DNA of 64,000 bases from an uncultured Verrucomicrobiota bacterium (lineage in GTDB: Bacteria > Verrucomicrobiota > Verrucomicrobiia > Limisphaerales > UBA9464). The DNA lies in contig CAIVQB010000092.1 in assembly GCA_903907925.1 (NCBI GenBank), positions 1 to 64,000 on the forward strand. Direction: 5' to 3'. Shown piece by piece: positions 3,420-53,285 of the stretch. The translations under genes and the position numbers were made by a program. Within the stretch, counting starts at the first letter, position 1, and every line of letters begins with the position of its first letter. Below the pieces are notes generated by a model that was not told the DNA's origin, searched no databases, and saw only the letters and a list, made by a program, of their open reading frames with translations.

Positions 3420-4334
3420 GTGACTCCGACCCGTCAGGGATCCTTTCGACTATTCCAAATCGCCGGCATCGAGGTGTTTCTCCACTTCTCGTGGTTCATT
3501 GTCGCGTACTACGGGATCAAGGTGCGGATGCCCGGCTACTCGTCGTTGGTTTGGCCCGTTGCCGAGTACGTCGCCCTGTTCGCCACCGTGCTGCTGCACG
3601 AATTCGGTCATGCATTGGCCTGCCGATCCGTGGGTGGGAAGGCTGAAGAAATCGTTCTCTGGCCGTTGGGCGGCGTGGCTTATGTGGCGGCACCGCCGCG
3701 GCCCGGTGCGCAATTGTGGAGTATCGCCGCCGGCCCGCTGGTGAACGCGGTGTTGTTGCCGTTTTTTTGGATTCTTTCCTCGGCTACGGCCTCCGCTGGT
3801 TGGGCGGATTCAAATCCCAACGCCCAGACGTTCCTGGTGGCGATGAAATATCTGAATGGCGGGTTACTCGCCTTCAATCTGCTGCCGGTCTATCCGCTGG
3901 ACGGCGGCCAAATCCTTCGCTCGCTCTTGTGGTTCGGACTGGGTCGGGCAAAGAGCCTGAAGGTCGCGAGCGTCGTCGGCTTCCTCGGGGTCGCCGGGTT
4001 GGGGTGTCTGGCGCTTTGGTCGACGGACGTGTGGCTGGGTTTGATGACCGCCTTTGTCGGCCTGAACTGTTGGCGCGGCTGGAAGGAGGCCCAATTGTTG
4101 TCGCGGATCGAACAATGGCCGCGTCGGGTGGGTTTCAAATGCCCCACGTGCAGCAAGGCGCCGCCGGTTGGGCCGTTCTGGCGCTGCGAAGCCTGCCGCG
4201 CTCCCTTCGACACCTTCGAATCGTTCGGCGGCTGTCCCGCCTGCGGAATGGCCCAAACGGCCACGCCCTGTCCGGATTGCGGTGCCATCGGACCCACGGC
4301 GAACTGGGTGTCCGCACCGCCCCGACAGGCTTGA
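3420..4334 (+). CDS. Site-2 protease family (M50) membrane metalloprotease with C-terminal zinc-ribbon region
   Basis: HEFGH motif, 'NLLPVYPLDGGQILRS' motif, multiple TM segments, CxxC pairs at the C-terminus; GTG start. Confidence 0.9.
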   Translation: MTPTRQGSFRLFQIAGIEVFLHFSWFIVAYYGIKVRMPGYSSLVWPVAEYVALFATVLLHEFGHALACRSVGGKAEEIVLWPLGGVAYVAAPPRPGAQLWSIAAGPLVNAVLLPFFWILSSATASAGWADSNPNAQTFLVAMKYLNGGLLAFNLLPVYPLDGGQILRSLLWFGLGRAKSLKVASVVGFLGVAGLGCLALWSTDVWLGLMTAFVGLNCWRGWKEAQLLSRIEQWPRRVGFKCPTCSKAPPVGPFWRCEACRAPFDTFESFGGCPACGMAQTATPCPDCGAIGPTANWVSAPPRQA

Positions 4335-4423
4335 TTCGCCGGGGTGCACCGCCGAGAAACCCATCGTCGGCCTCGATTTGCAGACTTGACCGGACCGGGT
4401 GGGTCTCCGTTTACTGTCCGGCA

Positions 4424-4498
4424 ATGCAACCGTGCACGAACCTTGTAGTAGTCCTTGTAGCGGGCGGCGACGCCGCTGCTGGGACGTGTCGTGCATAA
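4424..4498 (+). CDS. Putative ilvB leader peptide MQPCTNLVVVLVAGGDAAAGTCRA
   Basis: Short ORF with Leu-Val-Val-Val-Leu-Val codons, 13 nt before a perfect intrinsic terminator and 97 nt before ilvB. Confidence 0.75.
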   Translation: MQPCTNLVVVLVAGGDAAAGTCRA

Positions 4499-4511
4499 CT
4501 GCGCTTTCACT

Positions 4512-4545
4512 AAAACCCACGGCTGGCAACGGCCGTGGGTTTTTT
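4512..4545 (+). terminator. Intrinsic terminator/attenuator upstream of ilvB
   Basis: AAAACCCACGGC-tggcaacg-GCCGTGGGTTTT TT: perfect 12-bp stem, 8-nt loop, T-run. Confidence 0.88.
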
Positions 4546-4594
4546 GTCGCCAAATGACCGACGCCGTTCCGGCCCGAATTCCAGCAAAAGCACC

Positions 4595-6484
4595 ATGAGC
4601 ACTGCGACCACCCCCTCCAATCCATCCCACTCGTCCTCCACCGCCGCCGGCGGCAAGGAGGTCGGGCCCATGATGTTTGGCCGTGACATCTTTGTGGAAG
4701 CCCTCGAACGGGCCGGGGTCGAGGTGATCTTCGCCTATCCCGGCGGCGCCTCGATGGAAATCCATCAATCGCTGACCCGCTCCAAGATCCGCACCATCCT
4801 CCCGCGGCACGAACAGGGCGGCAGCTTCGCGGCGGAAGGTTATGCCCGCGCCACCGGCAAGGCCGGCGTCTGCATGGGTACCAGCGGACCGGGCGCGACC
4901 AACCTGGTCACCGCCATCGCCGATGCCTACATGGATTCCTGCCCGCTGGTCGCCATCTCCGGCCAGGTGACCCAGGCCATGATCGGCCGCGGTGCCTTCC
5001 AGGAAACCGACATGCTCGGCGTCACGATGCCGATCGTGAAGCACAGCTATCTCATCACCGACATCAAGGACATCCCCCGCGTGGTCGCCGAGGCGTTTTA
5101 CATTGCCGAATCCGGCCGGCCCGGTCCGGTGGTGATTGATTTCCCCAAGAACCTGCAACAGGCCAAGGCTCAGCCCGTCTGGCCGACCCTCGCCGAAATC
5201 AAAAAGGGTCTGCGCGGCTACAATCCCGACGTGTTCGCCGGTGACCTGGAATTGAACGAAATCATCGGCCTGATCGAGAAGGCCAAACGCCCGGTGCTGT
5301 ATTGCGGCGGTGGCATCATCACTTCTGGTGCGGCGGCGGAACTCAAGAAATTCGCCGAGGCGGCGCAAATCCCGGTGACCACCACGTTGATGGGCATCGG
5401 CGGTTTCCCGGAGACCAATCCGTTGTCGATGCGCTGGCTGGGCATGCACGGATCGGCCGTGGCCAACTGGGCGGTCAGCGGTGAATTCCAACAGCGCAAG
5501 GATCCCTCGGAACCGATGGTCAAGGTGCACGATGGGGCCGATCTGTTGCTCGCGTTCGGCGTGCGGTTCGATGACCGCGTGACCGGTGCCTTCAGCGAAT
5601 TCGCCAAGGGTGCCACCATCGTCCACATCGACATCGATGCCTCCGAGCACAACAAGAACAAGCGCGCCCATCTCGCCGTGCAGGGCGACATCAAGGACGC
5701 CCTGACCCGGCTCAACGCGCTCGTCACCCGTCACGGCGGCGTTCGCAAGAAGTTCGACGCCTGGCATGCCCGGATCGCGGAATGGAAGAAGAAGGCTTCG
5801 TTCCACTACGAGATCACCCCGGAGATCTCCAACAGTGATCACATGAAGGATCACATGAAGGGTCAGGAAGATCAGGTCATCCTGCCGCAGATGGTGATCG
5901 AGATGTTGTACGAGTTGACCGGCGGCGATGCCATTATCACCACCGGCGTCGGCCAGCACCAGATGTGGTCGGGCCAATGGTACAAGTATTCCGAACCGCG
6001 CACCTTCATCACCTCGGGCGGTCTGGGGTCGATGGGTTACGGCTATCCCGCGGCGCTCGGCGCCAAGGTGGCCCGCCCTGACAAACAGGTCGTGGACATC
6101 GACGGCGACGGTTCCTTCCTGATGAACATCCAGGAACTGGCGACCGCGCACGTCGAGAAGATCGCCGCCAAGGCCATCATCCTCAACAACCAGCACCTCG
6201 GCATGGTGGTGCAATGGGAGGACAGCTTCTACGCCGGCAACCGCGGCCACACCTACCTCGGCAATCCCGAGAACCGCTCGCAGATCTATCCGGACTACGT
6301 GCGCGTCTGCAACAGCTTCAATGTTCCCAGCGAACAGGTGATGTTCCGTCGCGACCTCAGGGCCGCGTTGCAGCGCATGCTGGATTCCGAGACCGCCTAC
6401 GTCCTCAACGTCGTGACTCCGTACGCCGAGCACGTGCTGCCCTTCATCCCGGCCGGTCGCACGGTGGCGGACATGAAATACTGA
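4595..6484 (+). CDS. ilvB: Acetolactate synthase large subunit
   Basis: ThDP-enzyme signatures ('AYPGGASMEIHQSL', 'RHEQGGSFAAEGYARATGKAGVCMGTSGPGATNLVT', 'DGDGSFLMNIQEL'). Confidence 0.95.
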   Translation: MSTATTPSNPSHSSSTAAGGKEVGPMMFGRDIFVEALERAGVEVIFAYPGGASMEIHQSLTRSKIRTILPRHEQGGSFAAEGYARATGKAGVCMGTSGPGATNLVTAIADAYMDSCPLVAISGQVTQAMIGRGAFQETDMLGVTMPIVKHSYLITDIKDIPRVVAEAFYIAESGRPGPVVIDFPKNLQQAKAQPVWPTLAEIKKGLRGYNPDVFAGDLELNEIIGLIEKAKRPVLYCGGGIITSGAAAELKKFAEAAQIPVTTTLMGIGGFPETNPLSMRWLGMHGSAVANWAVSGEFQQRKDPSEPMVKVHDGADLLLAFGVRFDDRVTGAFSEFAKGATIVHIDIDASEHNKNKRAHLAVQGDIKDALTRLNALVTRHGGVRKKFDAWHARIAEWKKKASFHYEITPEISNSDHMKDHMKGQEDQVILPQMVIEMLYELTGGDAIITTGVGQHQMWSGQWYKYSEPRTFITSGGLGSMGYGYPAALGAKVARPDKQVVDIDGDGSFLMNIQELATAHVEKIAAKAIILNNQHLGMVVQWEDSFYAGNRGHTYLGNPENRSQIYPDYVRVCNSFNVPSEQVMFRRDLRAALQRMLDSETAYVLNVVTPYAEHVLPFIPAGRTVADMKY

Positions 6485-52883: not shown

Positions 52884-53285
52884 ATGCAACTGGCCACCCA
52901 GCTCGCCCTGTTCCTCGACAACCGCCCCGGAACGCTGGCACGCGTGTGTGACGCTCTGGCCGAGGCCGGGGTGAACATCCACGCGTTCTCCACCAACGAC
53001 GCGGTCGACCACACCGTCATCCGTATGGTCGTGAGCGATCCGCGCAAAGCGATCGAAGTGTTCGAGCAACGCAACGCGCTGGTGGTGGAGAGTGAGGTCC
53101 TGATGGTTCCGGGCGATAATCGTCCCGGTTCACTAGCCGAGATCGCCCGGAAGCTGGGCGAAGCGGGCATCAACATCGACTACGCCTATTGCGCGACGTC
53201 GCCGGGCGCCCGGAACGGTCTGCTCATTCTGCGCGCCACCAATTGCAAAAAGGCGATGAAGGTGTTGAACCAGCCTGTCAAATGA
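52884..53285 (+). CDS. Tandem ACT-domain amino-acid-binding protein
   Basis: 'LALFLDNRPGTLARVCDALAEAGVNIHAFS' and 'VPGDNRPGSLAEIARKLGEAGINIDYAY': two ACT motifs. Confidence 0.88.
   Translation: MQLATQLALFLDNRPGTLARVCDALAEAGVNIHAFSTNDAVDHTVIRMVVSDPRKAIEVFEQRNALVVESEVLMVPGDNRPGSLAEIARKLGEAGINIDYAYCATSPGARNGLLILRATNCKKAMKVLNQPVK

Follow-up and report, generated by a model that had tools for sequence, protein, structure and literature searches.

In Escherichia coli, the ivbL-ilvBN system combines a Val/Leu-rich leader peptide with alternative hairpins and a terminator located before ilvB, and ivbL has a normal 5′ UTR with a ribosome-binding site. The leader described here shares this layout, but it is probably leaderless. 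In Corynebacterium, an anti-antiterminator (H1), an antiterminator (H2) and a terminator (H3) were proposed for the ilvBNC attenuator (ilvB-II motif), whose transcript begins one nucleotide from the leader start codon (PMC10272879, PMC11857589). In M. tuberculosis, the ilvB1NC attenuator has a uORF rich in BCAA codons (LVVI), among them a GUA control codon, and gives a premature transcript of about 120 nt (PMC13236596). Actinobacterial ilvB leaders had been predicted in 2005. The ilvB-OMG and Leptospira ilvB motifs, which were later reread as probable BCAA-rich uORFs (PMC10272879), also lie upstream of ilvB, but they were defined on other sequences than the element of our window, i.e. the whole stretch of 64,000 nucleotides analysed.

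The likeness to these systems is one of architecture. As in Corynebacterium ilvBNC, the element is found upstream of ilvB and contains a short Val/Leu ORF including CUU and GUA codons; the Corynebacterium attenuator, however, belongs to another phylum, encodes a 15-residue peptide and controls an ilvBNC operon, and a sequence match is not part of the likeness. With Mycobacterium tuberculosis ilvB1NC the element has in common the BCAA-rich uORF, the GUA control codon and an antiterminator/terminator switch, but the two differ in lineage, RNA sequence and number of control codons. Taking the comparative and folding data together, we consider that the element is most probably (with a probability of about 0.92) a ribosome-mediated transcription attenuator of ilvB, which would sense mainly charged valyl-tRNA, leucine being secondary.

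The leader ORF, its start and the terminator

The features of the locus are collected in Table 1. The original prediction had placed a 24-codon ORF ahead of ilvB, followed after 13 nt by a 12-bp stem with a T-run, and had pointed to two complementarities, TGCACGA/TCGTGCA and GCCG(ctgc)TGGG/CCCACGGC; all of these are present in the sequence as described. Counted to the CCC, the distance from the leader stop is 17 nt. The 64 kb window contains 708 ORFs of 15-35 codons that begin with ATG or GTG; of these, the leader ORF alone has six V/L/I residues in a row, and the hairpin is the only exact stem of 11 bp or longer for which the search applied here detected a T-tract. The leader ORF and the hairpin are therefore not chance features of the window. 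The frame of the leader is open 260 codons back through the protease gene (window 3716-4498), and since it is already open there, its openness is no evidence for the leader ORF.

Table 1. Coordinates of the features of the ilvB leader region in the window
Feature	Position	Strand	Basis or remark
M50-type protease gene	3420-4334		upstream of the leader, co-directional with ilvB
-35-like box TTGACC	4386-4391	+	sequence; TTGAC kept across loci
-10-like box TTTACT, 18-nt spacer	4410-4415	+	sequence; TAnnnT-like box across loci
Leader ORF, 24 codons + TAA (ATG at 4424, TAA at 4496-4498), peptide MQPCTNLVVVLVAGGDAAAGTCRA	4424-4498	+	sequence; without Shine-Dalgarno
Segment 0, TGCACGA, putative anti-antiterminator 5′ arm	4433-4439	+	pairs with 4489-4495; swap test
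Candidate control codons Leu-Val-Val-Val-Leu-Val, CTT GTA GTA GTC CTT GTA	4442-4459	+	sequence, Val conservation, GTA enrichment
Segment 2 outer strand, GCCG(ctgc)TGGG, putative antiterminator	4472-4483	+	pairs with 4516-4523
Segment 2 inner strand, GTG here, CTTGTCG in most relatives	4486-4488	+	pairs with CAC 4508-4510
TCGTGCA, putative anti-antiterminator 3′ arm	4489-4495	+	sequence; swap test
Segment 3, CAC..AAAACCCACGGC	4508-4523	+	common to antiterminator and terminator
Intrinsic terminator: 12-bp stem, arms AAAACCCACGGC (4512-4523) and GCCGTGGGTTTT (4532-4543), 8-nt loop TGGCAACG, T-run 4540-4545	4512-4545	+	sequence, folding, alignment pairing
GC-rich stretch GACGCCGTTCCGGCCC between terminator and ilvB	4560-4575	+	conserved; swap test, tentative
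ilvB, acetohydroxyacid synthase large subunit, 629-aa ORF	4595-6484	+	regulated gene (proposed); homologues in relatives

Related genomes keep both the Val/Leu ORF and the terminator, as anticipated: a counterpart ORF is present in 99 of the 100 loci examined upstream of ilvB, with a length of about 22-28 codons and a stop-to-stem spacing of 17-23 nt in those 99. When codons are numbered back from the stop, no residue is as frequent as Val from -11 to -18, its conservation peaks at -12 and -13, and codons -11 to -13 specify Val in 69-86% of loci. The choice of codon is equally biased. GTA accounts for 230 of the 638 leader Val codons (36%) versus 23 of 1244 (1.8%) in ilvB itself at the first set of loci, i.e. 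an enrichment of about 20-fold for a rare Val codon (Fisher p 2e-93). This enrichment fits a stalling site, since a rare codon is expected in a sensor block and is hard to explain otherwise. The Leu/Val block had been put forward as the sensor, and the Val/Leu ORF is indeed kept; the conserved Val at -11 to -13, mostly GTA or GTC, suggests more precisely that the sensor would respond mainly to valine. The conserved C terminus of the leader peptide is partly imposed by RNA pairing.

How is the leader ORF translated? In 96 of 99 loci TTGAC precedes the start codon of the leader by 32-43 nt, a distance that hardly varies, and across loci the best -10 hexamer (TAnnnT-like) typically ends 6-10 nt 5′ of this codon. 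In the window, the leader ATG lies about 8 nt past the -10 box and is devoid of a Shine-Dalgarno sequence; a Shine-Dalgarno-like 4-mer precedes the leader ORF in only 5 of 99 loci. The proximity of the -10 box to the start codon and the lack of a Shine-Dalgarno sequence suggest that translation of the leader ORF probably begins at a leaderless 5′ end. A simple promoter/terminator scanner, at its settings, listed neither this promoter nor this terminator, a result which is neutral either way.

The alternative pairings and the position of the ribosome

The proposed switch would operate as follows. Transcription would start at the ATG or within a few nucleotides 5′ of it, and ribosomes would load straight onto the start codon. 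When valyl-tRNA is plentiful, the ribosome would reach the stop codon and cover segment 2, in the 3′ part of the ORF; segment 3 (CCCACGGC) would then pair with GCCGTGGG to form the terminator, and transcription would stop before ilvB. When valyl-tRNA is scarce, the ribosome would stall on the GTA/GTC/CTT block and mask segment 0 together with the 5′ half of the hairpin that comes next, so that segment 2 would be freed to pair with segment 3, the terminator would be blocked and ilvB transcribed. Without a ribosome on the leader, segment 0 would pair with the 3′ end of the ORF, and termination would be the default. We infer that stalling, termination and the response to valine take place in this way in vivo.

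The pairings on which this scheme depends are well conserved. In the covariation alignment, which has 103 rows, three of them spurious reverse-strand, 98.4% of the terminator cells are paired, and 87.7% of the cells of the antiterminator outer helix; CCCACGGC in segment 3 is near-invariant in alignment A2. Free leader RNA folds 5.0 SD below dinucleotide shuffles (z -5.0). In most relatives, segment 2 consists of GCCG..GG and CUUGUCG, and segment 3 of CGACAAG-AA-CCCACGGC. The inner helix, weak in the window itself, displays changes on both sides at 5 of its 7 pairs, and 27 antiterminator cells have both sides changed, compared to 12.3 in shuffles (0/500). When segment 3 was exchanged between genomes, the antiterminator energy went from -22.8 kcal/mol (own) to -21.1 kcal/mol (swapped), with a z of -8.1 and 0/2000 permutations, and the corresponding test for segment 0 and the 3′ end of the ORF gave a z of -9.3 (0/2000 permutations), the permutation and swap tests ignoring relatedness among genomes. 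Compensatory change is thus visible in both of the alternative pairings proposed at the outset. The window antiterminator has a 4-nt bulge and, at -18.0 kcal/mol compared to -22.8 on average, ranks below most others in strength.

The pairing of 4433-4439 with 4489-4495, first noticed as one of two alternative pairings, does co-vary, but these data suggest for it a different role, that of an anti-antiterminator rather than a part of the antiterminator. In 26 of 99 loci, compared to 6.2 expected, a word of 6 nt or more occurs both in segment 0 and in the stretch before the terminator, and at locus L051 the three partners are altered together (TTCGACAGG, CCTGTCG and CGACAGG).

Folding with a ribosome placed on the leader agrees with this arrangement. 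The RNA was folded to the end of segment 3, with the 3′ edge of the ribosome 15 nt from the first base of the P-site codon, a prefix folding which presumes that equilibrium is reached ahead of the synthesis of segment 4, the partner of segment 3 in the terminator. The mean antiterminator probability is 0.87-0.88 for an A site at codons -14 to -11, where Val occurs most often; it drops to 0.12 at codon -8 and to 0.00-0.01 from -4 to the stop. For the window, values of 0.96-1.00 are predicted over codons -16 to -11, and a ribosome at the stop codon gives 0.00. As originally expected, a ribosome on the control codons would thus free segment 2 and allow the antiterminator, whereas a ribosome on the stop codon would not. 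The order of the codons matters: at codon -13 the value was 0.88 for the real order and 0.56 after the last ten had been shuffled, and the real order exceeded the shuffled one in 97 of 99 loci. In the ribosome-free prefix the antiterminator probability is 0.00 for the window and on average 0.54 for its relatives; default termination in the absence of translation is therefore predicted for the window and is less uniform in relatives.

Many relatives carry a GC-rich CCCGCGRCC or CCGGCC between the terminator and ilvB (window 4546-4594). The swap test of this element against the terminator 3′ arm GGTCGTGGG gave 14/2000, and the GC-rich stretch may possibly, and only tentatively, pair with this arm. 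A more elaborate proposal can be built on this, namely a leaderless five-segment valine attenuator ancestral to the whole order, in which two partners of nearly the same sequence, one located 5′ in the ORF and the other immediately ahead of the terminator, would compete for the strand that reads CUUGUCG in most relatives, and in which the conserved downstream element would pair with the 3′ arm of the terminator and lock the antiterminated state. We regard it as possible, but rather doubtful as a whole.

Other readings of the locus

The hairpin is located between two co-directional genes, and its 5′ A-run would allow bidirectional action, as could be expected if it were the plain terminator of the upstream M50-type protease gene and the short ORF were accidental. 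Yet it is kept right before ilvB throughout the order, a promoter-like box separates the protease gene from the leader ORF, and Val codons, codon choice and alternative pairings are all conserved, which makes such an origin extremely unlikely. It is hardly more credible that the leader is a ligand-binding riboswitch or a T-box containing an ORF by chance. The leader RNA has a high degree of structure and its terminator sequence hardly varies within the order, two properties that would suit such a regulator; but outside the ORF there is no large conserved aptamer domain, and the conservation is explained by Val codon identity and ribosome geometry. Moreover, a search of the window against Rfam, at the gathering threshold and with E up to 5, returned no family above threshold, T-boxes included, the best weak match being His_leader (21.5 bits versus a cut-off of 49).

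A last explanation stays closer to translation. A Shine-Dalgarno-like word precedes ilvB in 3 of 92 loci, and ilvB is without a Shine-Dalgarno sequence, so that its translation could hinge on upstream events. Ribosome-mediated control could then rely dominantly on Rho-dependent termination or translational coupling, with a secondary role for the intrinsic terminator. However, the strong intrinsic terminator and the antiterminator that excludes it are the best-conserved parts of the locus, and we find this division of roles very improbable. The reading as ribosome-mediated attenuation, which was that of the original prediction, is the one supported by the retention of ORF and terminator, by the compensating pairings and by the predicted folds.

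Distribution, novelty and neighbourhood

The upstream regions of 28 loci with the shared layout served to construct a covariance model, which matches 182 of the 195 genomes of the window's order, and 107 of the 110 of good quality; ilvB homologues were identified in 37 of 39 relatives. Elsewhere in the phylum the model gave weak matches only, and 28 readable ilvB upstream regions from other orders contained no V/L/I-run ORF and no matching terminator. Fourteen model matches from outside the order were fetched and rejected as terminator look-alikes, none having ilvB alongside. We also scanned 85,488 species genomes (one per species, bacteria and archaea) with a terminator-only pattern. Among the stretches listed, at least 118 in number, 113 are followed by ilvB within 200 nt, and a leader ORF can be recognised in 101; the matches listed include Verrucomicrobia subdivision 3, Limisphaera and Pedosphaera records. 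We infer that the order carrying the element is Limisphaerales. Six element-bearing public MAG records (L166, L168, L173, L178, L196 and L209) are titled Akkermansia muciniphila, Omnitrophota or Opitutaceae, and some of these titles look wrong.

Open-licence papers on Verrucomicrobia and Pedosphaera yielded no description of an ilvB attenuator element. The mechanism is known, but with no Rfam match and no paper found, the RNA family and its lineage appear undescribed, in line with the early suggestion of novelty in Verrucomicrobiota. The element constitutes a clear new family for Rfam and would extend ribosome-mediated ilvB attenuation to Verrucomicrobiota, with unusually deep comparative support. 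In its GUA/CUU codons and its anti-antiterminator it closely parallels the leaderless attenuator of Corynebacterium, although the two phyla are distant; this raises the question of convergence, and suggests that leaderless initiation, suited to tight coupling between ribosome and polymerase, recurs in such leaders.

Elsewhere in the genome of the window, the covariance model has a second match on C121, a CCCACGAC...GGTCGTGGG terminator (L091, 14493-14545) before an unrelated gene; we rejected it as a second attenuator, as there is no ilvB nearby. In the window, the next ORF after ilvB is on the opposite strand, and the best match for ilvN comes from a different contig, C9. The AHAS small-subunit ACT domain (PF22629) is matched weakly, and twice, at 52902-53273, within a single open frame of 179 residues. 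Finally, on the minus strand at 1287-2135, the translation of an ORF resembles the end of an IS66-type transposase in its C-terminal half, with an unrelated N-terminal part, and this ORF is perhaps a broken insertion.
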